From NCBI RefSeq assembly GCF_947500995.1, contig NZ_CANMUA010000001.1, positions 124,001 through 188,000 on the forward strand: 64,000 nucleotides of DNA, read 5' to 3'. The notes below the pieces were generated by a model that was not told the origin of the DNA, searched no databases, and saw only the letters and a program-made list of their open reading frames with translations. Position numbers and translations under genes: made by a program. Source of the DNA: an uncultured Serinicoccus sp. (GTDB lineage Bacteria; Actinomycetota; Actinomycetes; Actinomycetales; Dermatophilaceae). This document shows, piece after piece, positions 2,377 to 62,623 of this stretch. Position 1 is the stretch's first letter, and the number at the start of each line of letters is the position of its first letter.

Positions 2377-3267
2377 CTAGCCACCGAGGTCGGCGACGAG
2401 CGCGGGCAGCACGTCCCCCACCAGCGCGTCGAGCCGGAGGGTGGTCTCGGCGTCGCCCCGCGTGGAGCCGCGGGTGACGACGGCGACGGGTATGCCGTCG
2501 CGCGCGGCCCGGCGCACGAACCGGTAGCCGCTCATCACCTGCAGCGAGGAGCCGAGCACGAGGAGCGCGCTCGCGCCCTCGACCAGGCTGAACGCCCGCT
2601 CGACGACGTCCTTGGCGACGGAGCCACCGAAGAAGACCACGTCCGGCTTGAGGCGGTCCCCTCCGCACACGAGGCATCGCGGCGTGCGGAAGCCGCTGAC
2701 CAGCGCCTCGGGGAGGGCGACGTCGCCGTCCGGCCGCACCTGCGCGGGGCCGTCGAGACCGGTCAGGAGGTCGGGGTTGGCGTCGACCAGCCACTGCTGC
2801 ACGAGGTCCCGCGAGGTCTGCTCGCCGCAGTCGAGGCAGGTGACCGCCGCCAGGGTGCCGTGCAGCTCCAGCACGCGTCGGCTGCCGGCCCGCTGGTGGA
2901 GTCCGTCGACGTTCTGGGTGATGACGTGGCGCAGCAGCCCCAGGCGCTCCAGGTCGGCGACCGCGCGGTGGGCGGCGTTCGGCTCCGCCGCCGCGAACCT
3001 CCCCCACCCGGCGAAGGCGCGCGCCCAGTACCGCTGCCGACCCTCGGCGGACGTGACGAACTCGCCGTGCTGCATGGGCTGCACCCGCCGTGTCCCGTCG
3101 GGACCGCGGTAGTCCGGGATGCCGCTGGCCGTCGACATCCCGGCGCCGGTGAGGACCACGACGTCCCCGTCCGCGAGCAGCTCCCGCAGCTCCCCGAACG
3201 CGAGCGGGTCGACCGGCGTGGGGGGTGGCAGCGTCCGGGCCAGGTCGAGCGGGCCCACCACGCTCAC
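2377..3267 (-). CDS. Sir2-family NAD-dependent protein deacylase
   Basis: About 296 residues with the full sirtuin signature: the NAD-binding loop GAGMSTASGIPDYRG, TQNVDGLH, the catalytic histidine in LELHGT, a four-cysteine zinc site (CLDC and CLVC) and GSSLQV near the end. The spacing resembles class II (SIRT4-like) sirtuins. The usual FFGE motif reads FFGG here (VVFFGGSV). It would remove acyl groups from lysines using NAD, producing nicotinamide and O-acyl-ADP-ribose. The GTG start at 3267 is tentative because no clear ribosome binding site is visible; GTG 3261 is an alternative. Substrates cannot be told from sequence. Confidence 0.9.
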   Translation of the reverse strand: MSVVGPLDLARTLPPPTPVDPLAFGELRELLADGDVVVLTGAGMSTASGIPDYRGPDGTRRVQPMQHGEFVTSAEGRQRYWARAFAGWGRFAAAEPNAAHRAVADLERLGLLRHVITQNVDGLHQRAGSRRVLELHGTLAAVTCLDCGEQTSRDLVQQWLVDANPDLLTGLDGPAQVRPDGDVALPEALVSGFRTPRCLVCGGDRLKPDVVFFGGSVAKDVVERAFSLVEGASALLVLGSSLQVMSGYRFVRRAARDGIPVAVVTRGSTRGDAETTLRLDALVGDVLPALVADLGG

Positions 3268-3402
3268 GACGACCCGACCCACGGTGCGGCCCGTCCGGAC
3301 ACGGGCACAGGGCGGCCGCGGGGGGCGGCTGGTGCGGGTGCGGGACGCGTCGACATGGTGGGTCCATCCTGCCAGCCGCACGTCCGCACGGCTCGCGGGA
3401 AC

Positions 3403-4746: not shown

Positions 4747-4844
4747 GTGCCCAGCACACCGCCGGCGGATGACCGGAGCATGAACGTGGCCGGTGGTGTC
4801 GGCGTCGCTCTGGTGACGGGCCCCCGACGACTACGATGCAGGGC

Positions 4845-5847: not shown

Positions 5848-5910
5848 CGGCTCCCGGCTCTCGGCTCTCGGCTCTCGGCTCTCGGCTCTCGGCTCTCGGC
5901 TCTCGGCTCA
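5848..5910. repeat. 7-bp tandem repeat (CGGCTCT)n
   Basis: Nine head-to-tail 7-bp units. Seven are perfect CGGCTCT copies from 5855 to 5903; they are flanked by one CGGCTCC and one CGGCTCA. The last unit contains the comEC stop codon (TCA, 5908-5910, read on the minus strand). The array fills most of the convergent intergenic gap between the LysR gene and comEC. Its length is likely to vary between strains. Confidence 0.95.
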
Positions 5911-8481
5911 CCCTCCCTCCCGGGCGTGCGGGACGAGCCGACCGCGCGCGTCGCGGACGACGGCGACGTCTCCGTGCAGGTCCGTCCTCAGCACCACGGC
6001 CCCGACCTCGGAGAGCAGGCTCAGCGCGCTGGGGGCCGGGTGCCCGAAGTCGTTGTCCTCCCCTACCCCGATGAGTGCGATCTCCGGACGCGCCTCGCGC
6101 ACCAGCCCCTCGTCCTGCGCCGCCGAGCCGTGGTGGGCCACCTTGAGCACGTCGTAGTCCCGACCCTCGGTGACCCGAGCGACCAGCCGGGCACTCTCCG
6201 GCTCCAGGTCACCGGTCATGAGCACCCGCGCCCCGGACACCTCGACGTCGAGGACGATGCTGGCGTTGTTGGCCGCCGAGTCTCCCGCGGGCGGCCGTGG
6301 CGTGGGCCAGAGCACGGTGACGACGGTGTCGCCCCAGGTCCACCGGTCACCCGGCTGCGCCACCCTGAGGGGTATGCCCGCCGCGCTCACCTGATCCGCG
6401 ACGGACGCCGCCGACTGGGCCGGCTCCTGGACCGGCGTGACCAGCACCTCATCCACGTCGGCCGCACCGAGCACCGCCGGGAGACCGCCGACATGGTCGC
6501 TGTGGAAGTGCGTCAGCACGAGCAGCTCGACCCGGCGCACGCCCAGCGACCGCAGGCAGTCCGCCATCGCCGACGGGTCGGGGCCGGTGTCGACCACGAC
6601 GGCCCGGCCGGCACCACTGGGGACCACGAAGGCGTCGCCCTGCCCGACGTCGCAGCCCACCACGACCCAGCCGGGAGGTGGCCACTCCTGGAGACCGGGC
6701 AGCGGAGCCACCCACCCCAGCACCGCGCAGCCCGCGGCGACGGCCACCCAGGGACGACGGCTCAGCTGGTGCGACCACCAGCCCCAGCTGAGAAGGACAG
6801 CCAGGGTCACCGCGGCCAGCGCCCAGGCCCCGACCACGCCGTCCCACCACTCCAGCGTCCCGCCGGGCAGGCGCGAGCACACCCGGGCGATGCGGCCGAT
6901 GGCCCAGGCGGGTGCCGCCGCGAGCCAGGCCACCGCTGTCGCCAGCCGTATGGAGAGCGGGGCCAGCAGCGCGGCGACGACGCCGAGGATCGTGGTCGGC
7001 GGGACCAGCGGCGCCGCCGCGAGGTTGGCCAGCACGGCGACCGTGGTGACGGTTCCCTGGAGCAGCACGATGACGGGGGCACAGATCACCTGGGCGGCGA
7101 GCGGCACCGCAGCCGCCCGCGCCGGCAGCGCCGCCCAGCGCGGCACCCTGGCGGCCATCGCGAGCCCCCACGGACGCGCCCACAGGACCAGGCCGAGCGT
7201 GGCGAGCGTGGACAGGGCGAAGCCGTAGGAGCGGGCCAGCCAGGGGTCGAGGTAGAGGAGGAAGATGACGGCCGCACCGAGGGTCGGCAGGCTCGCCCGT
7301 CGCCGACCCCCCGTGAGGGCCATCAGCCCGACCGCGCCCATGACCCCCGCCCGCAGGACCGAGGGCTCCGGGCGGCAGAGCAGGATGAACCCGAGCAGCG
7401 CGGCGAGCACCACCGGCAGCCGCCACCGGCGCGGCAGGCCCAGCCGGGCGGCGAGCAGGACGACCCCACCCGCCACGATCGCGACGTTGCTCCCGCTGAC
7501 CGCAGACAGGTGGGTCATCCCGGTGTCGCGCATGGCCTGCGTGAGGTCCGGGGGCGTCAGCGAGGTGTCGCCGATCACCAGCCCCGGCACGAGACCCCGG
7601 GCGTCCGCCGGCAGCGGGTCCACGGACCGGCGGAACCGGTCCCGGACGTGGTCCACGCCGCGCAGCAGCGCGGTCGGCCGGTCCAGGGTCGTGGGCGGTC
7701 CGCGAGGGACGAGGACCGCGACGGCCCGGTCGCCGGGTTCCGCCGGGGACCATCGGCCGAACGCCTCCACCCTGCTGCGCCACGCGGCCTCCTCCCAACC
7801 CTGCCCGGCGGGGGCGAAGAGGAGCACCGGGGTCCGCGGCCGGGCCGTCTGGCCACGGGCCGAGGCCCGCACGACGCGGGCCTCGAGGACGACGAGGGGT
7901 TCTCGCTCGTCCGCGCGCGCCAGCACCCGGGGCTCGGTGGTCACCACCAGCTCGACGCTGGTCACGGCCCGCTCCTGCGCCCAGCCGGCGACCGGACCGG
8001 CACGGGCGACAGCGAGGTGCAGCGCGGCGGCCCCGCACACCAGGCCCACGGCCGCCGCCGCGAGCGCCAGCACCGGCAGCACCGGGCGGCCCCGCCGTCC
8101 GGACCGGGAGGCACCGCCAGCCCACCCCGCGGAGCGCCCACCGCGGTGGGCGTACGGCGGGCCATCGACAGCGCCGCGGAGGGGACCGCGGATGCGGGGC
8201 AGGACCAGGAGGGCCACCGCCACGGTCAGGGCGCCGCCGGCGACCACCGCCGACAGCGCACCGGGCCCGGGCAGCACGCCCACCAGCACCGCCCAGGCCG
8301 TCACGGCAGGCAGGAGGAGACGCGCGTCGTGGGGCACCTCCCTCTTCTCACCCGCTGTCCGATCCGGCCCTGCCGGTCCCGCCGCCGCTGCCGTCCCTGC
8401 CGGGCCCGCCGGCGGAGCCGACCGCGCCGCCGCCCGGGCCGGTGGGCCCACCACGTCCGCCGGGACGCCCCGGCGACTCAC
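5908..8481 (-). CDS. comEC: ComEC/Rec2 DNA-uptake channel protein
   Basis: An 857-residue polytopic membrane protein. It has an N-terminal hydrophobic region with a DUF4131-type soluble insert, a central Competence domain of many membrane helices (about residues 290-600) and a C-terminal metallo-beta-lactamase-like domain with the intact metal motif LTHFHSDHVGG and a later AHHGS. ComEC carries single-stranded DNA across the membrane, and the lactamase domain is the proposed nuclease for the other strand. The GTG start overlaps the comEA stop (GTGA at 8478-8481), so the two are translationally coupled. The pro/ala-rich first 45 residues are unusual, so the start could be downstream. Confidence 0.93.
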   Translation of the reverse strand: MSRRGVPADVVGPPARAAARSAPPAGPAGTAAAAGPAGPDRTAGEKREVPHDARLLLPAVTAWAVLVGVLPGPGALSAVVAGGALTVAVALLVLPRIRGPLRGAVDGPPYAHRGGRSAGWAGGASRSGRRGRPVLPVLALAAAAVGLVCGAAALHLAVARAGPVAGWAQERAVTSVELVVTTEPRVLARADEREPLVVLEARVVRASARGQTARPRTPVLLFAPAGQGWEEAAWRSRVEAFGRWSPAEPGDRAVAVLVPRGPPTTLDRPTALLRGVDHVRDRFRRSVDPLPADARGLVPGLVIGDTSLTPPDLTQAMRDTGMTHLSAVSGSNVAIVAGGVVLLAARLGLPRRWRLPVVLAALLGFILLCRPEPSVLRAGVMGAVGLMALTGGRRRASLPTLGAAVIFLLYLDPWLARSYGFALSTLATLGLVLWARPWGLAMAARVPRWAALPARAAAVPLAAQVICAPVIVLLQGTVTTVAVLANLAAAPLVPPTTILGVVAALLAPLSIRLATAVAWLAAAPAWAIGRIARVCSRLPGGTLEWWDGVVGAWALAAVTLAVLLSWGWWSHQLSRRPWVAVAAGCAVLGWVAPLPGLQEWPPPGWVVVGCDVGQGDAFVVPSGAGRAVVVDTGPDPSAMADCLRSLGVRRVELLVLTHFHSDHVGGLPAVLGAADVDEVLVTPVQEPAQSAASVADQVSAAGIPLRVAQPGDRWTWGDTVVTVLWPTPRPPAGDSAANNASIVLDVEVSGARVLMTGDLEPESARLVARVTEGRDYDVLKVAHHGSAAQDEGLVREARPEIALIGVGEDNDFGHPAPSALSLLSEVGAVVLRTDLHGDVAVVRDARGRLVPHAREGG

Positions 8482-9566
8482 GGTCCGACCGTGACCAGCG
8501 GCGCCAGCTGCTCCAGGGTCCGGTCGCCGATGCCGCTCACCTCCAGCAGCTCCTCGACGGCGGTGAACCCGGCATGTTCCTCCCGCCAGGCCAGGATGCG
8601 GCCGGCGGTCACCGGGCCGATGCCGGGGAGCTCCTCGAGCTCGGCCTGGGTGGCCCGGTTGAGGTCGACCAGCGCCGGGACGGCCTCAGGGCCGGTGGCC
8701 CCGCCCCCGACGACCGCCCCCGTCGTCAGGCCCCCGGGCCCTCCACCGGCGAGCCATCCCGGAGGCGGTTCCTCGCCGGGCGCACCCACCCACACCTGCT
8801 CGCCGTCGACCACGACCCGGGCCATGTTGACCGACCCGGGGTCGGCGTCGGCGGTGAGGCCGCCCGCCGCGTCGACGGCGTCGACGACCCTGGCCCCCGG
8901 CAGCAGCTCGACGACCCCCGGCGCGGCGACGTGCCCGACCACGTGGACCAGGACGGGTCCCTCCGCGGTGGGTGCCGGGGTGCCCCCGGGCCCGGACACC
9001 TGCTCAGCGGCATCCGGATCACCCGCCCCCGGCTCACCACCCGCCTCACCTTCCGCCGCTTCACCGGCCCCCGCCCGCAGGCCGGGGACACCGCCTGCCC
9101 CGCCGGGTGCCGTCGTCGACGGTCCACCACCCCCGACGAAGCCCGGTGCCGCCGGCTCCACCTGTCCCTGTGCGGGGGCCTCCGGGAGCGCCGTGGCCTG
9201 CTGCGCGACCCACCACCACCGCCCCCCGAGCACCGCGAGCACGACCACGGCGACGAGGAGCAGACCACCCACGGACCGGGCACCCACCCCGATGCTGGCG
9301 CCGCGCCCCGCTCCCGGCACCGGCACGAGCCGCACCTCACCTCCGGGCGCGTCGGGGCCGGGCAGCCCGTCCTCCGCGTGCCCGCCGCTCACGGAAGCCT
9401 CGCCGACCTCGCCGCCCCCTCCGCGCTCCCACTCGTCCGCATGCCCGTCCGCATGCTCTTCCGCCTCCCCCGCGCCGCCGTGATCCACGTCGTCGCCGAC
9501 GTCGACCGCCGCCCGCCTCCTGCGGTGCCTGCCCTGGTGCAGGGCCTCCATGTCCCCCGAGTCCAT
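8478..9566 (-). CDS. comEA: ComEA helix-hairpin-helix DNA-binding protein
   Basis: About 362 residues. One membrane segment (GGLLLVAVVVLAVLGG) follows a charged N-terminus. A long Pro/Gly/Ala-rich linker leads to a SLBB domain (PVLVHVVGHVAAPGVVELL) and a C-terminal pair of helix-hairpin-helix motifs (DLNRATQAELEELPGIG, LLEVSGIGDRTLEQL). ComEA is the DNA receptor of the uptake machinery and delivers DNA to ComEC. The ATG at 9566 is preferred because the longer open frame upstream is low-complexity and overlaps the 30-bp repeats. The gene order degV, comEA, comEC, all on the minus strand, suggests a common transcription unit. Confidence 0.92.
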   Translation of the reverse strand: MDSGDMEALHQGRHRRRRAAVDVGDDVDHGGAGEAEEHADGHADEWERGGGGEVGEASVSGGHAEDGLPGPDAPGGEVRLVPVPGAGRGASIGVGARSVGGLLLVAVVVLAVLGGRWWWVAQQATALPEAPAQGQVEPAAPGFVGGGGPSTTAPGGAGGVPGLRAGAGEAAEGEAGGEPGAGDPDAAEQVSGPGGTPAPTAEGPVLVHVVGHVAAPGVVELLPGARVVDAVDAAGGLTADADPGSVNMARVVVDGEQVWVGAPGEEPPPGWLAGGGPGGLTTGAVVGGGATGPEAVPALVDLNRATQAELEELPGIGPVTAGRILAWREEHAGFTAVEELLEVSGIGDRTLEQLAPLVTVGP

Positions 9567-9682
9567 GGTCGGCACGCTAGGAGCGCCACGCCCCACGCGG
9601 GAGGGGGGTGGGGCGATCTGTGGACGGCCCGGCCCCGGCGGCGCAGGGTGTGGACGACGCCCGGTGCACGGGGCAGGCCCGG

Positions 9683-9742
9683 CCCGACCTGTCGCCCGAG
9701 GCCGGAGGGCATCCCGACCTGTCGCCCGAGGCCGGAGGGCGG
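9683..9742. repeat. two tandem 30-bp repeats upstream of comEA
   Basis: Two adjacent 30-bp copies (9683-9712 and 9713-9742) differ only in the last two bases. Each holds GACCTGTCGCCCGAGGCC. They lie in the 206 bp gap between the degV stop (9773) and the comEA start (9566), where the comEA promoter should be. They could be a duplicated operator or a chance slippage product. Confidence 0.9.
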
Positions 9743-9772
9743 CCCGGCCTGCACCGCGGCGACCGGAGGGGC

Positions 9773-10633
9773 TCAGCCGGCGTCGGCCACCACGACCCCG
9801 AGGGTGCCCGGGCCGGTGTGCACCCCCAGGCTGGGGTCCAGGGGCAGCACGAGCGGGTCGAGACTTAGCCGCTCCCCCAGCCGGCCCGCCAGCCCGGCAG
9901 CGGCCTCCTCCGCGTCCAGCTCGTGCACGGCCAGCCGCGGTCGCCCGCCCTCGGCGCGCACCCGCTCGACGGCGTCGGCCACCCACGCCTCCAGCCGGGC
10001 GAGCGCCTTGCCCCGGGTCCGCACCCGCTCCGCCAGCACCACCTCGCCGTCGGCCAGGGTCAGCAGCGGCTTGATGGCCAGCGCCGACCCGAGCACGGCC
10101 TGCGACCGGCCGAGCCGGCCACCGCGACGCAGGTGCTCGAGGGTGTCGACGTAGAACCAGGCGCGCGCCCCCGCCAGCCGCCGGTGCACCAGCGCCTCGA
10201 CCTCCGCCAGGGTCCCGCCGTCCGCCGCCAGCGCCGCCGCGTCCTGCGCGGCCCAGCCCAGCGTCATACCCACCGTGCGGGAGTCGAGCACCCGCACGTC
10301 GACCTCGTCGGCGACCTCCGCCGCGGCCAGCCGGGCGGCCTCGACGGTCCCGCTGACCCCGCCCGACAGGTGCACGGACACGACGGCCCGGCAGCCGGTA
10401 CGACCCACCAGCTCGCGGTAGGCCTCCACGAACTCCCCGGGCGACACCCGGCTGGTGGAGACGCTGACCCGGTGCGTGCTCGGGCGCAGGGCCTCGACCA
10501 CCTCCGCGTGCCCGACCTCGCGCGTGTCACCGCGGCGCCCGGCCACCATGACGTGCAGCGGGACCACCGACAGCGCCCGCACGGCCCCGGGGGGCAGGCA
10601 GCTGGCGCTGTCGGTGACGAGGGCGACGTCCAT
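9773..10633 (-). CDS. DegV-family fatty-acid-binding protein
   Basis: A 286-residue two-domain protein. The N-terminus VALVTDSASCLP is the DegV signature; SVSTSRVSPGEF and the SVHLSGGVSGT segment provide the Ser/Thr residues that hold the fatty-acid carboxylate. The C-terminal part (YVDTLEHLRRGGRLG, IKPLL) is typical. Firmicute DegV/FakB proteins present fatty acids to the kinase FakA; no FakA gene is in this window. It lies 14 bp downstream of leuS on the same strand, so it is probably co-transcribed. M. tuberculosis also has a DegV protein close to comEA. Confidence 0.93.
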   Translation of the reverse strand: MDVALVTDSASCLPPGAVRALSVVPLHVMVAGRRGDTREVGHAEVVEALRPSTHRVSVSTSRVSPGEFVEAYRELVGRTGCRAVVSVHLSGGVSGTVEAARLAAAEVADEVDVRVLDSRTVGMTLGWAAQDAAALAADGGTLAEVEALVHRRLAGARAWFYVDTLEHLRRGGRLGRSQAVLGSALAIKPLLTLADGEVVLAERVRTRGKALARLEAWVADAVERVRAEGGRPRLAVHELDAEEAAAGLAGRLGERLSLDPLVLPLDPSLGVHTGPGTLGVVVADAG

Positions 10634-10647: not shown

Positions 10648-13575
10648 TCAGACGACGATGTTGACCAGGCTCGGGGCCCGCACGACGACCTTGCGCACGG
10701 GCGCCCCGTCGAGGAAGCGCTGCACCTTCTCGCTACCCAGCGCCAACGCCTCGAGGTCGGCCGCGGAGATGTCCGCCGCGACGTCGATCCGGTCGCGCAC
10801 CTTGCCCTTGACCTGCACCACCGCCGTCACCGAGTCCTCCACCAGCAGGGCCGGGTCGGCCTGGGGGAACGGCGCGTAGGTGAGGTCGTCGTGACCGAGC
10901 CGCTCCCACAGCTCGGCGGCCAGGTGCGGGGCGACCGGGGCCACCATCTGCACCAGCGGCTCCACGGCGGCCCGCGGCACGGTGTCCCGCTTGGTCAGCA
11001 GGTTGTTGAGCTCGATCATCCGGGCGATCGCCGTGTTGGTGCGCAGCGCCGCGTAGTCCGAGCCCACCGCGTCGATCGTCCGGTGCAGCGCCTTGGCGAG
11101 GTCCGGGCTCGGCGTCTCGTCGGTCACCGTCACCTCACCGGTGTCCTCGTCGACCACGTTGCGCCACAGGCGCTGCAGGAAGCGCTGGCTGCCGACGACG
11201 GCCCGGGTCTCCCAGGGACGGTACTGCTCCAGCGGCCCCATGCTCATCTCGTAGACCCGGAAGGTGTCGGCGCCGAACTGCTCGACCATCTCGTCCGGGG
11301 TGACGACGTTCTTCAGCGACTTGCCCATCTTGCCGTACTCCTGGGTGACCGGCTGGCCCTGCCAGGTGAACGTCGAGGGCCCGCCGTCGGAGGAGGTGTG
11401 CTCCTCGACCTCCGCCGCGGGCACCGGGAAGCCGCGGGCGTCGCGGTAGACGTAGGCCTCGATCATGCCCTGGTTGATGAGCCGCCGGAACGGCTCCTCG
11501 CTGCTCACGTGGCCCAGGTCGAAGAGCACCTTGTGCCAGAAGCGGGCGTAGAGCAGGTGCAGCACCGCGTGCTCCACCCCGCCGACGTAGAGGTCGACCC
11601 CGCCCGGGTCGACAGCGCCCTCGGGGGCCTCGGGGACGGTCTCCTCCCGGGGTCCGATCCAGTAGCCCTCCACCGCCGGGTCGACCGGCGCGGCGGCGTT
11701 CTCCGGGTCCAGGTAGCGCAGGTAGTACCAGCACGACCCGGCCCAGTTGGGCATGGTGTTGGTCTCGCGGCGCACCGGCACCGGCCCCCGCCCGTCGCCG
11801 AGGTCCATCGTCGTGTGCACCCAGTCGGTGGCACGCGCCAGCGGCGCCTCCGGCTCGGAGTCGGCGTCGTCGGCCTCGAAGGTGCGCGGGGCGTAGTCGG
11901 GGACGTCCGGCAGGGTCACCGGCAGCTGGTCGTCGGGCACCGCGTGGGCCACCCCGTCCTCGTCCCAGACCACCGGGAACGGCTCACCCCAGTAGCGCTG
12001 CCGGCTGAACAGCCAGTCCCGCAGCCGGTAGGTCACGGTCGCGCGACCGCGGCCGGTCTGCTCCAGCCAGGCGATGATGCGCTCCTTGGCGTCCTCCACC
12101 CCCAGCCCGTCGAGGCTGACCTCGTCGTTGGCCGAGTTGATCGCCGGGCCCTCCCCCGTGAAGGCCTGGTCCTCCGGGTGGTCCGGTGTCGGCTGCACGG
12201 TGCGCACCACCGGCAGGTCGTAGGCCAGCGCGAAGTCCCAGTCGCGCTCGTCCTGCCCCGGCACCGCCATGATCGCGCCGGTCCCGTAGCCCATGAGCAC
12301 GTAGTCGGCGACGAAGACCGGCACCGGCGCGCCGGTGACGGGGTTCGTCGCCCAGGCGCCGCTGAAGACGCCGGACTTCGCCTTGCCCTCGGTCTGCCGC
12401 TCGACGTCGCTCTTGGCCGCGGCCTGGCGCTGGTATGCCGTGACCGCCTCGCGCGGGGTCGGCGCGCCACCGGTCCACGCGTCCTTGGTGGCGGCCGGCC
12501 ACGCGTCGGGCACGATCCGCCCGACGAGCGGGTGCTCGGGCGCCACCACCATGAAGGTCGCCCCGAAGAGGGTGTCGGGCCGGGTGGTGAAGACCTCCAG
12601 GGACGCCTCCCCACCGGTCGTGGTCGGGACCGGGAAGGCCACCTGGGCACCGGTCGAGCGACCGATCCAGTGGCGCTGCATGAGCCGCACCCGCTCCGGC
12701 CAGTCCAACCGGTCCAGGTCGTCGGTGAGGCGGTCGGCGTAGGAGGTGATGCGCATCATCCACTGCGACAGGTTGCGCTTGAAGACGGGCAGGTCGCCGC
12801 GCTCGGACCGGCCGTCGGCGGTGACCTCCTCGTTGGCCAGCACCGTGCCCAGGCCGGGGCACCAGTTGACCGGCGCCGCCGAGACGTAGGCCAGCCGGTA
12901 GCCGTCCAGCACCCGGGCCTGCTCGGCCCTCGAGAGCTCCCCCCAGGGACGACCGCCCGGGACCTCGCGGCTCCCGTCGGCGAACTCCTCGACGAGCTCG
13001 CTGATCGGCCGGGCGCGACCCGGCGCCGACTGCCCCGACCCGGGGCGGGGGTCCGCCTGGGGGTCGTACCACGCGTCGTGGATCTGCTGGAAGATCCACT
13101 GCGTCCAGCGCACGTAGTCCGGGTCGATGGTGGCGAAGGTGCGCCGCGGCTCGTGCGAGAGCCCGATCATCCGCATCTGCCGCCGGTAGGTCGACATCGC
13201 CTCCTCGGTCGTCACCCGGGGGTGCTGACCGGTCTGGACGGCGTAGTGCTCCGCGGGCAGCCCGAAGGCGTCGAACCCCATGGCGTAGAGCACGTTGGCG
13301 CCGGTCGTGCGCAGGAAGCGGGCGTGGACGTCGGTCGCGACGTAGCCCAGCGGGTGACCGACGTGCATCCCGGCCCCCGAGGGGTAGGGGAACATGTCCA
13401 TGACCACGCGGTGCTCACGCCCGTCGGCGAGCCTCGGGTCCTCCGGCGCCGCCCAGGGGCCGGCCGGGTTGGCCGAGGCGAAGGTGTCGTCCCGCTCCCA
13501 CCGGTCCTGCCAGCGGCGTTCGATGCGGCCGGCCAGCTCGGCGGTGTAGCGGTGCTCGGGGGTGCGCTCGCTCAT
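10648..13575 (-). CDS. leuS: leucyl-tRNA synthetase
   Basis: A 975-residue class I synthetase charging tRNA-Leu. The HIGH motif is in [15 protein letters not shown] near residue 70, the large editing (CP1) domain occupies the middle, and the KMSKS motif appears as GKMGKSLKN near residue 745. The C-terminal anticodon and tail regions are complete. The upstream 225 bp hold a hairpin with a short U-tract about 57 bp before the ATG (possible attenuator) and the rpsT terminator hairpin. Confidence 0.98.
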
Positions 13576-14258: not shown

Positions 14259-15233
14259 TCAGCCGTTGCGCTGCCGACAGACCTCCAGCACCGCGCGCTC
14301 CACGGCATACTCCGGGCTGCGGACGCTCGCCTCCGTCCGGATGCCGCCCTTGACGTCGACATCAGCCTGAGCGACGGCCTGGATGGCGCGGCCCAGACGC
14401 TCGCCGTCCCAGCCCTGGCTGACGCGTCGCGCGGCGTCCACCTGCCACGGGGCCATGCCCAGGTCGCGGGCGAGCTGGGCCGACCCGCCGCGACCGGCGG
14501 AGGCCACCTTGCCCACCTGCCGCAGCTGCATGGCCAGCACCGCCACGATGGGCACCGGGTCCAGGCCCCCGAGCATCACGTGCCGGAGCAGGGCCATCGC
14601 GGTCGCCTCGTCGCCCTGCAGGGCCGCCTCGGCGACCCGGAAACCGGTCGTCTCGACCTTCTCGCCGTAGTAGGTCGTCACGTCGTCGACCTCGACCAGG
14701 CCCTCGACGTCCCGGACGAGCTGCTCGCACGCCGAGGCGAGCTCGCGCAGGTCCTTGCCGACCGCGAGCACGAGGGCACCCACCGCCTCCGGCGCGATCT
14801 TGCGCCGGGCGTCCCGGAACTCGCCGGTGACGAAGTCGTGCTTGTCGCGGTCGGTCTTGACGGCCTTGGCCTCGATGACCCTGGCACCCCCCTTGCGCAT
14901 CGTGTCCAGCACCCGCTTGCCGCGGTTGCCCGACTTGTGCCGCACCACGAGGGTCACCGCGTCGGAGGGCTGCTCGAGGTAGCTGGTCAGGTCCTCGACC
15001 AGCGCGTCGTCGGCCTCGTCCAGGTCGTGGACGACGATGACGCTCCAGCCGCCGAACAGGCTGGGGCTGGCATGGACCAGCAGCTCGCCGGCCTGGTAGC
15101 TCGAGGGGTGCACGCGGATGAGGTCCACCTCCGGCTCGGACGCCCGCACCGCGGCGAGGACCGAGTCGACCCCGCGCTCGGCCCGGAGGTCCTCCGGGCC
15201 GGTGATGAGCGCCAGGGACGGCGGCGCGCTCAT
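14259..15233 (-). CDS. holA: DNA polymerase III delta subunit
   Basis: 324 residues with the actinobacterial HolA pattern: [17 protein letters not shown] at the N-terminus, a degenerate AAA+ fold, and a C-terminal collar domain ([18 protein letters not shown]). Delta opens the beta clamp within the clamp-loader complex. ATG 15233 has GGAGGGG six bases upstream and overlaps the stop codon of the DUF952 gene by four bases (ATGA), so the two genes are translationally coupled. Confidence 0.95.
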
Positions 15234-20129: not shown

Positions 20130-20212
20130 GGCCCCAGGGTATGCCGTGGCCCCGCCCCGTGCAGACGCCGTCCACAGCCGGCTGCACGCCCCGGTCGGTG
20201 CCCCCGCCCTGC

Positions 20213-21064
20213 TCAGGCCTCGACGACCAGGACGCGCTCGCCGCCGGTGTAGACGTTGAGGCTGCGGCCCCGGTTGAAGCCGACGAGCGTGAGGCCGACC
20301 TCCTCGGCCAGCTCCACCGCCAGGGAGGACGGTGCGGAGACCGCGGACAGGACCGGTATGCCGGCCAGCGCCGCCTTCTGCACGAGCTCGAAGGACGCGC
20401 GGCCGGAGACCTGCAGGACCGCGCCGGGCAGCGGCATACCCCGCTCCCGCAGCGCCCAGCCCACCACCTTGTCGACGGCGTTGTGCCGCCCGACGTCCTC
20501 GCGCAGGCACACCAGGTCGAGCCCCGGGCCCTCCGCGCCCGGCACGAAGAGCCCGGCCGCGTGGACCCCGCCGGTGCGGTCGAAGACGGCCTGGCTCTCG
20601 CGGAGCCGGTCGGGCAGGGCCAGCAGGTCGGCCAGCCGGAGGCGCGCCCGGTCCCTGCCCAGGTCGTGGTGGCCCGTGCGCCGCACGGACTCGATGGAGG
20701 CGGTGCCGCAGACCCCGCAGGAGGAGGAGGTGTAGACGTGCCGCTCCAGTGACGGGTCGGGCGGTGCGACACCCTCGGCGAGCCGCACGTCGACGATGTT
20801 GTAGTCCCGCAGCCCGTCCGACCCGATCCCGGAGCGGTAGTCGATCTGGTCCACGTCGTCCCACGAGGAGACGACGCCCTCCCCGTGCAGGAAGCCGACC
20901 GCCAGGTCGAAGTCGTCCCCCGGCGTCCGCATCGTCACCGAGAAGGACCGGCCGCCCACCCGGACCTCCAGCGGCTCCTCCCCCGCGAGGACGTCGGCCC
21001 GCTCGCGCACGGCGCCCTCGGCAGTGAGGCGACGCACGCGCCGTCGCTGGGTGACCCTCGCCAT
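20213..21064 (-). CDS. fdhD: FdhD formate dehydrogenase accessory sulfurtransferase
   Basis: 283 residues with the CxxC active site (SSCGVCGTASIE) that carries sulfur from IscS to the molybdenum cofactor of formate dehydrogenase, and the conserved LREDVGRHNAVDKVVG and VSGRASFELVQKA segments. No formate dehydrogenase gene is in this window, so its partner is elsewhere. The -10 TACGGT (21076-21071) ends six bases before the ATG, predicting a leaderless transcript divergent from the DinB-fold gene. Confidence 0.97.
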   Translation of the reverse strand: MARVTQRRRVRRLTAEGAVRERADVLAGEEPLEVRVGGRSFSVTMRTPGDDFDLAVGFLHGEGVVSSWDDVDQIDYRSGIGSDGLRDYNIVDVRLAEGVAPPDPSLERHVYTSSSCGVCGTASIESVRRTGHHDLGRDRARLRLADLLALPDRLRESQAVFDRTGGVHAAGLFVPGAEGPGLDLVCLREDVGRHNAVDKVVGWALRERGMPLPGAVLQVSGRASFELVQKAALAGIPVLSAVSAPSSLAVELAEEVGLTLVGFNRGRSLNVYTGGERVLVVEA

Positions 21065-24370: not shown

Positions 24371-24451
24371 GCCCGCAGCCTGGCACACCGGCGCGCACCC
24401 GGACGACCGGCCGACGCGACGCCGGGGTCGCGCCCGTCTAGCGTTGGGGGT

Positions 24452-26715: not shown

Positions 26716-26843
26716 AATCTCCTTCGGGTCGTGCAGACGGTATGCCTGCGGCCGGCTCCCCGCCAGCCTCTCACCAGGTCAACGCCGCGGGCCACCGATT
26801 TGTTGCCTCGGGCGGTGCTGCCGACGTGGGAGACTGGCCGCCG

Positions 26844-29665: not shown

Positions 29666-29726
29666 ACCCGGAAGTGTGACATCTGATGCGTGACGGGAGG
29701 GGCGGGATGGTACTACCGTGGCCTCC

Positions 29727-30077: not shown

Positions 30078-30124
30078 GGGCCGCCGCGGCGCCGGCGCCG
30101 ACGTCAGGGCATACCCTCGACAGC

Positions 30125-53766: not shown

Positions 53767-55530
53767 ATGGCTGAGGATGCCGCATCGAGCGTGGGGCCGG
53801 TGCGCCAGCAGGAGGGGTGGCGGATCGTCCCGCCGCACGAGGGGCACGTCGCGCTGCTGCTGGACCTGGGGGCTGACGAGGAGGCGCGCCGGTGGGGCGA
53901 CGCCGTCCCCGTCCGGGACCCGGGGGCGGCACGGGCCTGGGTGGCGGTCGCCCGCGACGGGTGGGCAGCCCGGCACCGCTGGGCTCCGCGGCGCTGGGCC
54001 GTGGAGGGGTCCGCCGGGGCGGCCACCGGGGCGGGTGCGGATCGCGGATGGCGTCCGGTCGGCGTGGTGGAGTACCGCCCGGACGGCCACGGGGGCGCCG
54101 AGGTCGGGTATGCCGTCCACCCGGACCACCGCGGCCAGGGGGTCGCCACGCGGGCGCTCGGTCTCGCGCTGGACCACGCCTTCGAGGAGGACGACGTGGT
54201 CCTGGCGCGCTGGCGTGCCGAGGTCGGCCACCGGGCCTCCCGGCGGGTCGCCTGGCGGCTGGGCTTCTCCGTGCCGGTGCACGTCCGGGGCCTGCTGCCG
54301 GGGTGGGACCAGGACACCGCACCCCGCGACGGGTGGATGGCGACGTTGCACCGGGACGACCCGCGGGAGCCGGCATACCCGTGGCGGGAGATCCCGGTGC
54401 TGGCCGAGCAGGACGGTGACGTCCGGCTGCGTCCCTGGCGGGCGGACGCCGACGACACCGCGGCCCTGATGTCGGTCGACGACGTGGCCCGGCAGTTCGT
54501 CGGCCCGGTCCTGCCGGGGTCCGGCGAGGAGGCCGTGCGGGCCTGGACCAGGGCCCGGCTCGAGTCGGCCCTGCTCGGGCACGGCCTCACCTGGTGCATC
54601 GCCGACGCGCGCTCCGACGTGGCGCTCGGCGGCATCTCCCTCTTCGACCTGCTGGACCCCTTCGCCCACGGGTGCGCCGAGGTGGGCTACTGGCTCCTCC
54701 CCGCCGGTCGCGGGAGGGGGGCCGTGACCCAGGCGTTGCGCCTGGTCACCCGGTATGCCGCGGCCGAGCTCGGCGTGCACCGGGTCGCCGCCCAGACCGA
54801 CGAGCGCAACGAGGCCTCGCACCGCGCGCTCCTGCGCGCGGGCTTCCGGTGGACGGTCACCGAGCCCCAGTCGTGCGTCTACTGCGCCGGGGGTGAGAGG
54901 CACGGCACCGCCCGGTTCGCGCTGCTCGGCGACGACGGGGCCGGGTCACCGGGAGTCCCGGCACCGCTCCCGACGCTGCGTGCCGACCCCCTGGTGCTGC
55001 GCCCGTGGCGCACCGGCGACGAGGACCGGATCGTCGAGGCGGTGACCGATCCGCTCAGCCGGCGATACCTGCCGCAGCTGCCCGACCCCTACGGCCAGCC
55101 GGATGCTGCGACCTTCGTCCAGGCCTGCGCCGAGGCCGCCGAGCGCGGCGAGCGGCGCACCTGGGCGGTGGCGGACGCGGCCGACGACCGGGTGCTGGGC
55201 GCGGTCAGTCTCACCCAGGCGTCCGCCTCGGGGCCGCCCGGGGAGATCGGCTACTGGGCCCACCCGGACGCCCGCGGCCGCGGCGTGACCACGGCCGCGG
55301 TGAGAGCGGTCGTCCGGTACGCCCTGGCGCCGGGGGCCGAGCAGGGTCTGGGCCTGCGGCGGGTCTGGGTGCAGGCGGCGGGCAGCAACCTGGCCAGCCA
55401 GCGCGTCGCGGTCGCGGCGGGGCTGCGCGAGGTGGGACGGGACCGTCAGGCCGAGGTCCTGGGCGACGGCACGGTCGAGGACCTGGTGCGGTTCGACCTC
55501 CTGGCGCAGGAGGTGCCTGCCCCGGGGTGA
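53767..55530 (+). CDS. triple-domain GNAT acetyltransferase
   Basis: 587 residues made of three GNAT domains in a row. Each has a recognisable acetyl-CoA loop: AEVGYAVHPDHRGQGVATRA (about residue 113), AEVGYWLLPAGRGRGAVTQA (about 303) and EIGYWAHPDARGRGVTTAAV (about 495). Domains 2 and 3 look like RimJ/RimL-type (VRLRPWR, LVLRPWRTGDED starts). One or two GNAT domains are common in this family, three are rare. The substrate is unknown. It is transcribed from a promoter that overlaps the secA promoter. Confidence 0.88.
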   Translation: MAEDAASSVGPVRQQEGWRIVPPHEGHVALLLDLGADEEARRWGDAVPVRDPGAARAWVAVARDGWAARHRWAPRRWAVEGSAGAATGAGADRGWRPVGVVEYRPDGHGGAEVGYAVHPDHRGQGVATRALGLALDHAFEEDDVVLARWRAEVGHRASRRVAWRLGFSVPVHVRGLLPGWDQDTAPRDGWMATLHRDDPREPAYPWREIPVLAEQDGDVRLRPWRADADDTAALMSVDDVARQFVGPVLPGSGEEAVRAWTRARLESALLGHGLTWCIADARSDVALGGISLFDLLDPFAHGCAEVGYWLLPAGRGRGAVTQALRLVTRYAAAELGVHRVAAQTDERNEASHRALLRAGFRWTVTEPQSCVYCAGGERHGTARFALLGDDGAGSPGVPAPLPTLRADPLVLRPWRTGDEDRIVEAVTDPLSRRYLPQLPDPYGQPDAATFVQACAEAAERGERRTWAVADAADDRVLGAVSLTQASASGPPGEIGYWAHPDARGRGVTTAAVRAVVRYALAPGAEQGLGLRRVWVQAAGSNLASQRVAVAAGLREVGRDRQAEVLGDGTVEDLVRFDLLAQEVPAPG

Positions 55531-55564
55531 GCGCGCGCGCCGGGCCGGCGGGCTGGCGACGATC

Positions 55565-56779
55565 TCAGGTCGGCAGGTCGACCCTTCCCAGGCCCAGCCA
55601 GCCGGCCATCGTCTCGAGCTCGGCGACCAGCCGGGGAGCCGCGTGGGCCACGTCGGTGCCCTGCTCCCAGTGGACGGCCCGGGACCGCAGCACCCCCGCC
55701 TCCCGGTCCGCCTTGAGGTCGACCCGCCCGACGAGGTGCTCGTCGAGAAGGAAGGGCAGGACGTAGTAGCCGTGCACCCGTTGCGGCGCAGGGACGTAGA
55801 TCTCCAGGCGGTAGCGGAAGTCCCAGAGCTGCTCCACCCGCTCGCGCTGCCAGACCAGGGAGTCGAACGGGCTCAGCAGCGCGCAACCCTCGACCCGGCG
55901 GGGTCGTCGGGCCCGGGGATCCAGCCACACCGGCCGGTCCCAGCCGTGGACGCGCACCCGCTCGGCCCGGCCCTGCGCCTCGAGCCTTGCGAGGGCCGCC
56001 GTCACGACCGGTCCACGCACCCGGAAGTAGTCGGCCAGGCAGCGCATGCTGCCCAGCCCGTGCGCCCGCAGCGCGACGGCCAGCAGCTCCACCACCGACT
56101 CCAGCTCGTCGGGCGCGTCCGGCTCACCGGGTGCACGACGCAGGACGTCCGGGGGCAGCACCTGCGTGGTGCAGGCATACCGCCGCTCGAACTGGCTGGT
56201 GCGCGCGGCGCTGGTGAGCTCGCCGGTCGCGAAGAGCGACTCCAGGGAGGTCTTGACCGCCGACCAGTTCCACCCCCAGTGGTCGTTGCGGCGCGTCGCG
56301 CCGTGCGGCAGGTGGACCTCGACCTCGCGGGCGGTGAGCGGCCCGTGCTCCGCCACCACCTCGCCGACCGCCTCCAGCAGTCCGGGATGCTCCTCGCGCA
56401 GCTGCCCACGACGCGCGAGCACGCGGGGACGCCGCATCCGGAAGCCGAGCAGGGGCCAGGTCGCCAGCGGGACGAGGGACGCCTCGTGCGCCCAGACCTC
56501 GACCATGCGGCGGCCGGCGCGGGCGCGGCCGCGCACCCCGGCGCCGTCCCGCATGCGGTCCAGGGACGCCGTGTCGTAGGCGCCGAGGCGGGAGAAGAAC
56601 GGCAGGTACTGGCTGCGGGCGAGGACGTTGACGCTGTCGATCTGGACGACACCGAGGCGGTCCAGGACGCCGGTGAGCTGGCGGGTGCCGGGACCCTCGG
56701 GGCGGGCCCGGCCGAAGCCCTGGGCGGCGAGCGCGACACGGCGGGCCTGCGCCGGGGTGAGGGTCAGCACGGGGACCAC
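55565..56779 (-). CDS. YcaQ/AlkX-family winged-helix DNA glycosylase
   Basis: 404 residues of the HTH_42 family. The signature QIDSVNVLARSQYLPFFSRLG near the N-terminus includes the Q-x-D catalytic motif of YcaQ. WAHEASLVPLATWPLL and the C-terminal LLDEHLVGRVDLKADR are also conserved. YcaQ unhooks interstrand crosslinks and removes bulky adducts. The start is taken at GTG 56779; GTG 56770 is equally possible. It lies between hpf and the GNAT gene, so the usual hpf-secA neighbourhood is interrupted here. Confidence 0.88.
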   Translation of the reverse strand: MVPVLTLTPAQARRVALAAQGFGRARPEGPGTRQLTGVLDRLGVVQIDSVNVLARSQYLPFFSRLGAYDTASLDRMRDGAGVRGRARAGRRMVEVWAHEASLVPLATWPLLGFRMRRPRVLARRGQLREEHPGLLEAVGEVVAEHGPLTAREVEVHLPHGATRRNDHWGWNWSAVKTSLESLFATGELTSAARTSQFERRYACTTQVLPPDVLRRAPGEPDAPDELESVVELLAVALRAHGLGSMRCLADYFRVRGPVVTAALARLEAQGRAERVRVHGWDRPVWLDPRARRPRRVEGCALLSPFDSLVWQRERVEQLWDFRYRLEIYVPAPQRVHGYYVLPFLLDEHLVGRVDLKADREAGVLRSRAVHWEQGTDVAHAAPRLVAELETMAGWLGLGRVDLPT

Positions 56780-57706: not shown

Positions 57707-58456
57707 CTAGTCCGGCTCCCCCGTGCGCGATAGGGCAGGCTCGGAGTCGGCGCGCCCGCGGCGGGCGGTCGCCGCCACGGTGGCCGCGACCACCCTTCCG
57801 GCCCCTGCCTGGCGCAGCGCGCGAGCACACTCGGCGAGCGTCGCGCCGGTGGTGACGACGTCGTCCACGACGACGCACGGCACGCCCGCGAGAGCACCGA
57901 CCAGCCCGGGGCGCACCCGGACGGCGCCGCCGAGGTTCGCCGCCCGCTGCCCGGCCGACAACCCGGCCTGGTCGGCGACGGCCCGGGTGAGGACGAGGGC
58001 CGGGACCACGGCACGCCGCGTCCCGGCCGCGACGACGGCGAGCTCGCGCACCGGGCAGCGACCCCGGGAGCGGGTGCTGGCCGCGGCCGACGGGGCGGGG
58101 AGCACGGCGACCGGGCGGCCGGCCCGGAGGGCGTCCCGGTGCTCCGGGGAGCCCGCGACGGCGGCTGCGACCGCCCCCCGCAGCACGTCGCCGAGGGCCC
58201 CCGTGAGGTCCACCCGGTCCTGCTCCTTCCAGGCGACGACGAGGGCGGGCAGGACGCCCTGGTAGGCCGGGCCCGACCAGGTGGGCGGGAAGCCGGGCGG
58301 GCATGGTGTGGGGCGCCAGGGGCGGGGCCCCGTCGCGTGCAGCTGGCCCAGGCAGTCAGGGCACAGACGGTGCCCCGAGCGCCCGCAGCCGGCGCACCCC
58401 GCCGGGGCGACCAGCTCCAGCAGGGCGCGCAGGTCCTCCCCCGGCCGCCACGGCAT
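57707..58456 (-). CDS. ComF-family phosphoribosyltransferase-like protein
   Basis: 249 residues. An N-terminal zinc-ribbon (CAGCGRSGHRLCPDC) is followed by a phosphoribosyltransferase domain with the PRPP motif VVVDDVVTTGATLAE. ComF assists DNA uptake in naturally competent bacteria, and comEC/comEA are present in this same window about 48 kb away. ATG 58456 lies inside a GGTATGCC octamer; the frame extends to GTG 58522 without a ribosome binding site. Order lpqB-comF-hpf is as in M. tuberculosis. Confidence 0.9.
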   Translation of the reverse strand: MPWRPGEDLRALLELVAPAGCAGCGRSGHRLCPDCLGQLHATGPRPWRPTPCPPGFPPTWSGPAYQGVLPALVVAWKEQDRVDLTGALGDVLRGAVAAAVAGSPEHRDALRAGRPVAVLPAPSAAASTRSRGRCPVRELAVVAAGTRRAVVPALVLTRAVADQAGLSAGQRAANLGGAVRVRPGLVGALAGVPCVVVDDVVTTGATLAECARALRQAGAGRVVAATVAATARRGRADSEPALSRTGEPD

Positions 58457-58531
58457 ACCCCAGGATCGCACCCTCGGACCCGACGTGCGGCTGTCCACAC
58501 CGATGCCGAGCGCGTCCGGCACCGACGCGCC

Positions 58532-60310: not shown

Positions 60311-61977
60311 CAGTCGTCCTCTCTCGTGGCCAGCGCCAGCACGACGGGGGGCACCTCGGCGTCCCGGGCGGCGGTGGCGCCACCGACGGGCCCCGGCCCG
60401 GAGGGCACCTCCGGCGGCTCGTCGGCGATGACGTGGGTATGGGCGCGGGGCAGCAGCAGGCGGAAGCAGGCGCCCTCGCCGGGCCGGCTGCCGACCTGCA
60501 ACCACCCTCCGTGGACGCGGGCGTCCTCCTGGGCGATCGCCAGGCCGAGCCCGGTGCCGCCGGTGGTGCGGGTGCGGGCGGGGTCGGCCCGCCAGAACCG
60601 GTCGAAGACCTGGTCGCGCTGCTCCTCGGTCAGCCCGATGCCGTGGTCGCGCACGCTGATCGAGACCACCTGGGGGTTGGTGGCCACGGTGACGTCCACC
60701 GGCAGCCCCTCGCCGTGCTCGACCGCGTTGGTCAGCAGGTTGCGCAGGATGCGGGAGACCCGGCGACCGTCCATGCAGACCTCGACCCGCTCGCTGGGCA
60801 CGTGCACCCGCAGCACCGTGCCCACCTTGTCGGCGAGGGTCTGCACCCCCTGCACCGCGGCGAGGACCGCGGGCAGGATGTCCTCCTCGTGGCGCTCCAC
60901 GGTGGCGGCACCGGAGTCGAAGCGGCTGATCTCCAGCAGCTCGGCGAGCAGCTCCTCGAACCGGTCCATCTCCTGGTCGAGCAGCTCGGCGGACCGGGCG
61001 ACCGGCGCCGCGAAGTCCTCCCGCGAGGCGTGCAGCACGTCGCCGGCCATCCGCATGGTCGTCAGCGGGGTGCGCAGCTCGTGCGAGACGTCGGAGACGA
61101 AGCGCTGCTGCAGCTGGGACAGCGAGCGCAGCTCGCGGATCTGGTGCTGGATGGAGTCGGCCATGGTGTTGAAGGAGGTCGCGAGCTGGGCGATCTCGTC
61201 GTTGCCCACGACGGGCAGCCGCTCGTCGAGGTGCCCCTGCGCCACCTCCTGGGACGCCTTGGCGACCTCCTCCACCGGCCGGGTCACCATGCGCGTCGCC
61301 AGCAGCGCCAGCCCCACAGCGAGGGCGAGCAGGCCCAGCCCGCCCAGGAGGAAGAGCTGCCGGACGAGGTCGAGGGTCTCCTGCTCGCGCAGCAGCGGGT
61401 AGACGAGGACGAGGTCGTACGGCCCCGCGCGCAGCAACGACACCCGGGAGCCCACCACGACGGCCGCCGTGCTCTCCTGCCCCTCCCCGAGCGACATCGG
61501 CACCACCATGACCTGCTGGTTGGCCGGGTCCTGCGCGATCGCCTCCTGCAGCGCGGCGGGGACGTCCTCGGCGGAGACCCCGGTGGACATGCGCTCCACC
61601 ACGCCGCTGGTGTTGCCGAGGGCCGGGAGCAGCAGGGCCCGGCGCCCGTCCGCGGCCGACGGACCGCTCATCGACTGGATCTGCTCCTCGGCCAGCCCCC
61701 GCAGGCCGCTGTCGTCCCGGCGGTCCGTGGAGTCGAACGCCCGCTGGGCGGTGGCGACCTGCTGGGAGGCGTCCCGCTCCGCGCTGTCCACGGCCTGCTC
61801 CACCAGGCCCCGGGAGACCTGCTGGTAGAGCAGGGTGCCGAGCAGGACGGCCAGCAGGGTGCCCACCAGGACCGTCGAGGTGATGACGCGCGCCCGCAAC
61901 GAGCCCCGCCACCAGGTCAGCACGCGCCGCCCGGTGGCGAACGGGTCAGGGGTGTCCGGCCTTGTATCCGACGCCAC
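60310..61977 (-). CDS. mtrB: MtrB sensor histidine kinase
   Basis: 555 residues. Two membrane segments (about 31-52 and 187-210) flank an extracellular domain. HAMP (ATRMVTRPVEEVAKAS), HisKA with H299 (VSDVSHELRTPLTTMRM) and HATPase (NLLTNAVEHGEG, DHGIGL, GGTGLGLAI) follow. It phosphorylates MtrA to control cell division and wall remodelling genes. GTG 61977 lies within the end of mtrA (32 bp overlap). Confidence 0.96.
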   Translation of the reverse strand: MASDTRPDTPDPFATGRRVLTWWRGSLRARVITSTVLVGTLLAVLLGTLLYQQVSRGLVEQAVDSAERDASQQVATAQRAFDSTDRRDDSGLRGLAEEQIQSMSGPSAADGRRALLLPALGNTSGVVERMSTGVSAEDVPAALQEAIAQDPANQQVMVVPMSLGEGQESTAAVVVGSRVSLLRAGPYDLVLVYPLLREQETLDLVRQLFLLGGLGLLALAVGLALLATRMVTRPVEEVAKASQEVAQGHLDERLPVVGNDEIAQLATSFNTMADSIQHQIRELRSLSQLQQRFVSDVSHELRTPLTTMRMAGDVLHASREDFAAPVARSAELLDQEMDRFEELLAELLEISRFDSGAATVERHEEDILPAVLAAVQGVQTLADKVGTVLRVHVPSERVEVCMDGRRVSRILRNLLTNAVEHGEGLPVDVTVATNPQVVSISVRDHGIGLTEEQRDQVFDRFWRADPARTRTTGGTGLGLAIAQEDARVHGGWLQVGSRPGEGACFRLLLPRAHTHVIADEPPEVPSGPGPVGGATAARDAEVPPVVLALATREDD

Positions 61978-62623
61978 GCACCGTCACCACGATCTGGGGG
62001 TTCTCCGGGTCCTTCTCGATCTTGCTCCGCAGCCGCTGGACGTGCACGTTGACCAGCCGGGTGTCCCCCGCGTGGCGGTAGCCCCAGACCTGCTCGAGCA
62101 GCGACTCCCGGTCGAAGACCTGGGTGGGCTTGCTCGCCAGCGCCACGAGCAGGTCGAACTCGAGCGGGGTGAGCGGGATCTGCTCGCCGGCCCGGGTGAC
62201 CTCGTGCCCGGCGACGTCGATCTGGACGTCACCCACCTGCAGCCGGGTGTCGTCGCCGGACTCGGTGCGGCGCAGCCGCGCCCGGATCCGGGCCAGCAGC
62301 TCCTGCGGCTTGAACGGCTTGACGACGTAGTCGTCCGCACCGGCCTCCAGACCCAGGACGACGTCCTTGGTGTCCGTGCGGGCGGTGAGCATGACGACCG
62401 GGATCCCGGACTCCGCCCGCAGCTCACGGCATACCTCGATCCCGTCCTTGGACGGCAGCATGACGTCCAGGAGGACGAGGTCGGGACGGAACTCGCGGAA
62501 CATCGGCATCGCCCGTCCCCCGTCGGCGCAGCTGGCGACCTCGTAGCCCTCCTTGCGCAGCACGATGCCCAGCATCTCGGCCAGGGCCTGGTCGTCGTCG
62601 ACCACGAGTACTCGAGCGCTCAC
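61946..62623 (-). CDS. mtrA: MtrA response regulator
   Basis: 225 residues. The receiver domain has D9/D10 acidic pair, phospho-acceptor D53 (LVLLDVMLP), T and K103-type lysine in VVKPF, and an OmpR-type winged helix (LTPLEFDLLVALASKP, VNVHVQRLRSKIE). It is an essential actinobacterial regulator of division and replication genes. AGGAGG lies before GTG 62623. It follows sahH by 34 bp on the same strand; the tmk gene found between them in M. tuberculosis is absent here. Confidence 0.97.
   Translation of the reverse strand: MSARVLVVDDDQALAEMLGIVLRKEGYEVASCADGGRAMPMFREFRPDLVLLDVMLPSKDGIEVCRELRAESGIPVVMLTARTDTKDVVLGLEAGADDYVVKPFKPQELLARIRARLRRTESGDDTRLQVGDVQIDVAGHEVTRAGEQIPLTPLEFDLLVALASKPTQVFDRESLLEQVWGYRHAGDTRLVNVHVQRLRSKIEKDPENPQIVVTVRGVGYKAGHP

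Follow-up and report, generated by a model that had tools for sequence, protein, structure and literature searches.

A dense octamer of Serinicoccus and related Dermatophilaceae whose same-strand copies avoid one another

The window considered here is a whole stretch of 64,000 nucleotides (positions 124001-188000 of contig 1) from the genome of an uncultured Serinicoccus sp. (G000; 3.8 Mb in 45 contigs), and the subject of this report is a single octamer within it, GGTATGCC. The octamer is in large excess over chance, is conserved between species, has dialects in related genomes, and lacks replication polarity. Within about 1 kb, copies that share a strand repel one another, and opposite-strand copies are independent. 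The role that fits these properties best is one absent from the candidates of the original prediction, namely a self-DNA mark of the uptake-sequence type, present in species dialects and read one strand at a time; we propose it tentatively, as a reading that stops short of being probable.

Excess of the word and its core

Counted on both strands, GGTATGCC occurs 27 times in the window (16 + and 11 -), and both the count and the positions given in the original prediction were confirmed. One hundred dinucleotide shuffles of the window gave 0.53 ± 0.69 copies (maximum 4), and under a second-order Markov model the word is the window's top octamer by z (27 versus 0.90 expected). The "about tenfold" excess first claimed is thus real as an excess, but the figure is too low for the Markov null; against the codon shuffles described below it is about twelvefold. 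The core heptamer GTATGCC has 29 copies. In the following list of sites, GGTATGCC denotes an exact match, the two core-only sites come from the core count, and gene labels come from a simple gene finder, on which all frames and "outside genes" labels in this work rest.

2489..2496, +, GGTATGCC
6371..6378, +, GGTATGCC inside comEC (gene call)
12432..12439, +, GGTATGCC inside leucyl-tRNA synthetase gene (gene call)
14304..14310, -, core GTATGCC without leading G
18279..18286, -, GGTATGCC
20138..20145, +, GGTATGCC outside called genes
20355..20362, +, GGTATGCC
20433..20440, -, GGTATGCC
21699..21706, +, GGTATGCC
23129..23136, +, GGTATGCC
23681..23688, -, GGTATGCC
24449..24456, +, GGTATGCC
26739..26746, +, GGTATGCC outside called genes
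27347..27354, -, GGTATGCC
29398..29405, +, GGTATGCC
29661..29668, -, GGTATGCC outside called genes
30108..30115, -, GGTATGCC outside called genes
35304..35311, +, GGTATGCC
38720..38727, +, GGTATGCC
40500..40507, +, GGTATGCC
43911..43918, -, GGTATGCC
44832..44838, +, core GTATGCC without leading G
46655..46662, +, GGTATGCC
54107..54114, +, GGTATGCC
54372..54379, -, GGTATGCC
54752..54759, +, GGTATGCC
56174..56181, -, GGTATGCC
58452..58459, -, GGTATGCC outside called genes
62428..62435, -, GGTATGCC

The whole genome contains 1415 copies (752 + and 663 -), or one per 2.7 kb, compared with 8 (4 + and 4 -) for the reversed word. In 460 kb of G000, 147 coding copies are found versus 12.4 ± 3.4 after synonymous codon shuffling within genes (30 replicates). 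The corresponding numbers for 400 kb of a second genome, G097, are 99 and 14.2 ± 4.5. An all-octamer comparison with this codon-aware null was made in these two genomes: the first ten octamers listed for G000 are GGTATGCC and words overlapping it, and the word and its overlaps likewise stand at the head of the G097 list. Chance and composition are ruled out as causes by the dinucleotide, Markov, codon-shuffle and all-octamer nulls, and a codon-pair effect by the use of several frames; the frame-bound word CGAGCAGC provides a contrast.

The words occupy all reading frames and both gene orientations, and the codons ATA, TAT, GCA and GTA named in the original prediction match the frames of the gene finder. 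In G000 the words lie at 0.36 per kb inside genes and at 0.92 per kb in intergenic or gene-edge DNA, and intergenic enrichment is seen in four of five genomes (G000, G097, G013, and G098 with its own word). Together with the codon-aware excess and the conservation described below, the use of all frames and both orientations bears out the proposal that selection acts on the DNA word and not on protein.

The word is better described as a strict heptamer core, GTATGCC, set between less constrained positions, usually with a G on either side. Among the single-base neighbours of GGTATGCCG in G000 and G097, GTATGCC tolerates almost no change, and the flanks are soft. Neither GTATGCC nor GGTATGCC is a palindrome; a palindromic core is found only in the CGTACGNCG dialect.

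Family range, dialects and conservation

The family is Dermatophilaceae in the GTDB sense, with membership inferred from genome names. Among named records, those of Serinicoccus come closest to G000, with leucyl-tRNA synthetase at 96% in S. chungangensis. Across 119 of its genomes, in 53 genera, GGTATGCC counts range from 6 to 2228 per genome, and in the source's genus from 38 to 2180 (31 of 31 genomes). In an order-wide sample of 198 genomes (14 of them from the family), those outside the family are near control or up to about fivefold over it (e.g., G155, 111 versus 24). The large excess is therefore confined to one family within the sampled order; outside the order, the word was counted in only four named genomes. 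The comparison of related genera, also suggested at the outset, finds the word abundant in several genera of the family (Serinicoccus sp., 1468; S. chungangensis, 1375; S. kebangsaanensis, 1764; three Ornithinimicrobium, 705, 817 and 1283; Phycicoccus elongatus Lp2, 1300) and scarce in others (Phycicoccus jejuensis, 18; P. sonneratiae, 15; P. endophyticus, 15; Nostocoides sp., 23; Janibacter melonis, 6; Dermacoccus abyssi, 41).

The family has dialects, since some members poor in GGTATGCC carry CGTACGNCG, GGATGCCG or CGAAGGGG instead. The dialect scan covered stretches of 17 genomes and required an excess over synonymous shuffles in several frames together with an excess between genes. It gave the following words.

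G000, G012, G013: GGTATGCC/GTATGCCG
G097, G117: GTATGCCG
G127: CGTATGCCG
G045: CGTATGCC, with a longer repeat
G098: GTACGGCG
G070: GTACGCCG
G056: GGATGCCG
G067: CGAAGGGG

Some of the dialects differ by one or two bases, and no outstanding word was found in 100 kb each of G111, G116, G087 and G055. CGTACGNCG has at least 1500 copies in 10 of the 119 genomes (maximum 5280), all of which hold at most 142 copies of GGTATGCC; in the 65 genomes with at least 200 copies of GGTATGCC, the maximum for CGTACGNCG is 899. A single genus, g26, holds both words (G124, 1694 GGTATGCC; G098, 11 GGTATGCC and 4872 CGTACGNCG). The idea of a spreading small repeat finds no support in G000 or G097, where the sites have no longer shared flank. 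G045 is the exception: here CGTATGCCGCTG lies within a longer dispersed repeat, with a shared flank after the word and 18 copies in 100 kb (stretches L222-L226), which suggests that in this genome a repeat element may carry it.

Conservation was compared over 184 kb of the window's contig, with 1679 other octamers of the same composition as controls. Between G000 and G330 (93.5% identity), 59 of 65 aligned sites are exact, compared with 6253 of 9016 control sites; between G000 and G013 (83.4% identity), the numbers are 41 of 59 and 3290 of 8754. The flanks of the sites are kept no better than average in either alignment. There is also turnover: of the sites alignable in all three genomes, 35 are common to all, 17 are found in G000 and G330 only, and 22 in G013 only.

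Strand layout and spacing

No replication polarity of the words is seen, as judged by local strand balance per stretch, with origin and terminus not located; this is the form in which the strand-bias check of the original prediction was made. The 20-kb stretches are in fact too evenly balanced between the strands (X2 49.5 on 107 stretches of 11 genomes), and consecutive sites switch strand in 931 of 1443 cases (752 of 1184 without G098 and G070, the palindromic-core dialects). Three of four control words switch strand in 0.42-0.48 of cases. Both the alternation and the over-even balance arise because same-strand pairs are depleted. In the pooled pair correlation, same-strand pairs are at 0.49, 0.59, 0.49, 0.59, 0.69, 0.85 and 0.95 of expectation in successive bins from 20 bp to 1.5 kb; for opposite-strand pairs the ratio stays close to 1 apart from an excess below 200 bp, and three control words have no same-strand deficit.

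A permutation test in nine genomes, which shuffled the strand labels and left the positions unchanged, found 170 same-strand pairs among the 593 spaced 20-800 bp apart versus 294.6 ± 12.5 expected, with P about 0.05 or less in seven of the nine. G098 and G070 were excluded from this test for their palindromic core, and are included in the pooled balance, alternation and pair-correlation figures. Overlapping inverted pairs are largely a property of these two genomes, which have 59 of them under 10 bp; the other dialects have almost none. Hairpins are rejected as the cause of the alternation, as pairs under 20 bp were left out and the deficit extends to about 800 bp. The Janibacter word shows a similar tendency (13 of 37 pairs same-strand, P 0.05), and this suggests that it does the same job as the other words.

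A site is thus devalued by a same-strand neighbor within about 1 kb and not by an opposite-strand one, and therefore the strands count separately. In a toy loss-gain model, strand-specific recognition with a mean reach of 300-1000 bp reproduces the spacing pattern, and orientation-blind recognition thins same- and opposite-strand pairs alike. A possible generalization, advanced with somewhat greater reserve than the uptake reading itself, is that of a strand-specific self-DNA code in monoderm Actinobacteria, in which every strand would require a word of its own within about 1 kb and the cell would judge incoming or parental DNA as single strands. The family's words, at least four in number, of which some are related and one is unlike the others, would then all serve what looks like a single task.

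Candidate roles of the word

For a self mark of the uptake type, the steps would be as follows. Natural transformation would proceed via ComEA/ComEC, possibly aided by a Tad pilus of the sort that Micrococcus luteus uses, and strands or fragments of ~0.3-1 kb carrying 5'-GTATGCC-3' would be favored. Molecular drive would then spread and maintain the word wherever a gene tolerates it. A second same-strand word within a fragment would add nothing, so that same-strand copies would thin out, and the opposite strand would be judged separately, leaving opposite-strand copies independent; single-strand entry through ComEC would supply this strand-by-strand rule. That the process is DNA uptake, the fragment length, and any reader protein are what we infer here.

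Known uptake sequences resemble the word in several respects. The DNA uptake sequences (DUS) of Neisseriaceae are likewise ~10 bp, non-palindromic, limited to a family and present in about a thousand or more copies, with dialects a few bases apart and some family genomes that have no obvious word (PMC3630211). Intergenic enrichment is reported for uptake sequences (PMC2346458, PMC1939737), and in the same papers they are said to lack replication polarity, as here; the spacing of the uptake signal sequences (USS) is noted as even, though less even than chromosome-compacting sites would be (PMC1939737). The word differs from DUS in its sequence, in belonging to a monoderm actinobacterium without a type IV pilus marker, in its same-strand-only repulsion, and in that a role in uptake is only presumed. 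USS of Haemophilus and the Pasteurellaceae are known for overlapping inverted pairs, which here are almost restricted to the palindromic-core dialects.

The scarcity of the word in acquired DNA was seen in the three low-density stretches inspected (part of their genes), all of which carry transposase or conjugation genes. One of them, L049 (G000 contig 2, 1-20000), holds no word at all, whereas the remaining 19 stretches of G000, each 16-20 kb long, hold 8-17; its genes include a TrwC relaxase, a TraG/TraD-type coupling protein and an ISL3 transposase. The other two, L161 of G330 and L023 of G097, hold two words each, and both have transposases. The conjugative element of L049 also encodes an M23/SLT/NlpC hydrolase, and its TrwC relaxase has primase-like domains.

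The window itself contains two competence-type genes, each with a conjectural link to the word.

5908..8481, -, comEC, with Competence and metallo-beta-lactamase domains; candidate DNA-uptake channel
8478..9986, -, comEA-like, with SLBB and helix-hairpin-helix domains; mechanical open reading frame whose true start is probably further downstream

M. luteus, which has comEA and comEC, requires Flp/Tad pili for transformation (PMC6370729). In the Tad-type loci of eight genomes, TadA and TadB/C clusters are present in all eight, Flp in seven (not called in G098), and TadE- and TadF-like genes in four (G000, G117, G067 and the wordless G031). Tad names other than TadA (PF00437) were assigned by reading and without a family search, and the gene finder may miss small genes. 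The G000 locus (L227; contig 1, 683000-697000) adjoins a helicase-like gene, and its TadB/C, Flp, TadE- and TadF-like genes are named in this way. T2SSE is found in 118 of the 119 family genomes, and neither ComEC, PilM nor T2SSE discriminates by word count among them. As a rarity for the family, PilM is matched in full in G055 (genus g26), on contig 2 near 210707-221974, together with a T2SSE ATPase that is full-length and of the type-IV-pilus kind. The comEC match is split in G117 (contig 1, 3438581-3439376) and G118 (contig 1, 1314184-1314974); in G117, which has 1527 words, the split may be a sequencing error or a recent loss.

A number of observations weigh against an uptake mark, or against parts of its evidence. 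On the side of genes, comEC is found in 115 of the 119 genomes, wordless ones included, and therefore its presence does not track the word; PilM is found in five (four as partial matches), so that a ComP-like receptor would lack the usual type IV pilus on which to sit. Tad-type genes also occur in the wordless G031, and no candidate receptor or reader protein was found in the Tad-type loci of the eight genomes or in the gene-presence comparisons. Uptake by H. influenzae is reported to be independent of USS orientation (PMC1939737), and therefore strand-specific spacing is not a known USS trait; the word here, judged indirectly from spacing, does not show orientation independence of action. Natural competence in this family is not named among the matches listed in our literature search. 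On the side of dialects, G086 and G009 gave only weak candidates (CGATGCGG, enriched in coding DNA only, and GTAGCGGC, from 77 kb), the Janibacter melonis word is unlike the others, and in the four g2 genomes classed as wordless (G031, G082, G111 and G133) CGTACGNCG exceeds its reversed control 4- to 6.5-fold, so that these may have a weak CGTACGNCG dialect. Members of one family share ancestry and are not independent samples, and the Fisher test of CGTACGNCG against GGTATGCC takes no account of descent. As to layout, the repulsion fails to reach significance in G117 (P 0.23) and G127 (0.10) and is borderline in G067 (0.05), G098 and G070 have none below 200 bp, and a rare control word, GGTACGCC, switches strand in 34 of 56 cases (0.61). 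Finally, G330 has no intergenic enrichment (0.45 versus 0.46 per kb), and a single control octamer, CAGCTGCA, kept at 24 of 26 sites, can equal the conservation of the word.

The spacing would be explained as well by a strand mark for DNA repair, in which modification or nicking of one strand at a non-palindromic site flags the old strand within ~1 kb, so that each strand needs its own mark. This would be a non-palindromic analogue of the mismatch-repair model for HIP1, the dense cyanobacterial octamer that also has alternative words in some relatives, and that model predicts saturation near one site per 1000 bp (PMC4390886). HIP1, however, is palindromic and generally has a cognate methyltransferase, whereas three methyltransferase families (PF01555, PF00145 and PF07669) are all absent from two high-copy genomes, G012 (2180 copies, one contig) and G037 (938); this test covered neither Type I nor Dam-type families. 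In the other 31 of 33 genomes the three families are sporadic, with no match to word presence. N6/N4 methyltransferases occur here and there across the family, whether or not the genome bears the word (G082, G087, G047, G081 and G098). We regard a repair mark as unlikely, and the earlier suggestion of a methylation or restriction site is weakened by the same absences.

A Chi-like signal for AdnAB or RecBCD, in one orientation and needed on both strands because both break ends are processed, is a little less likely again. Chi (GCTGGTGG) is also an asymmetric, strand-specific octamer, the word's density of one per 2.7 kb and its absence from the conjugative element would suit such a role, and Proteobacteria have differing but related Chi words (PMC8022716). 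The lack of local strand bias speaks against it, as does the strand switching, which is the reverse of the polarity used as a criterion in PMC8022716. In 450 kb of E. coli, Chi is polarized (77 to 14 by strand) and does not repel itself (14 same-strand pairs versus 13.7 expected at 20-1000 bp, small numbers, from stretches picked by origin position on one side of the chromosome), and the word is its opposite on both counts, which disfavors a Chi-like role. Balance, alternation and this contrast rule out polar signals in general. A segregation site also loses ground, since the local strand balance shows no origin-to-terminus polarity of the kind seen with FtsK and its orienting polar sequences (KOPS).

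It is improbable, and more so than a Chi-like role, that the word is bound by some abundant protein of the nucleoid or of partition and has nothing to do with DNA transfer. Chromosome-wide coverage and the greater density between genes in four of five genomes would agree with such a site, but a protein that binds double-stranded DNA would hardly spare opposite-strand neighbors, and the relatives G111, G087 and G116 have no outstanding word in 100 kb each. Least credible of all is a functionless product of mutational or repair bias, which is compatible with the excess alone and with the depletion of the neighbours GGTATGCTG (0 versus 4.0 expected in G000; 0 versus 2.3 in G097) and GGTCTGCCG (6 versus 11.8 in G097), but is rejected on neighbor counts (no single-base neighbor in either genome is depleted enough to have supplied 149 copies), by conservation above controls, and by a spacing memory over 1 kb that requires site-site interaction.

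We know of no uptake-type word outside Neisseriaceae and Pasteurellaceae, and of none with strand-resolved spacing; among the matches listed in our search of open-licence papers (titles and abstract starts), no description was found of this word or of uptake sequences in the family. Strand-specific spacing is a statistical fingerprint of the mode of reading that can be applied to any genome, and that tells models of the uptake, Chi and strand-mark types apart. Should the words prove to be uptake marks, they would imply natural transformation with self-recognition in a large, mostly environmental actinobacterial family, and their dialects would form barriers to gene exchange within it.

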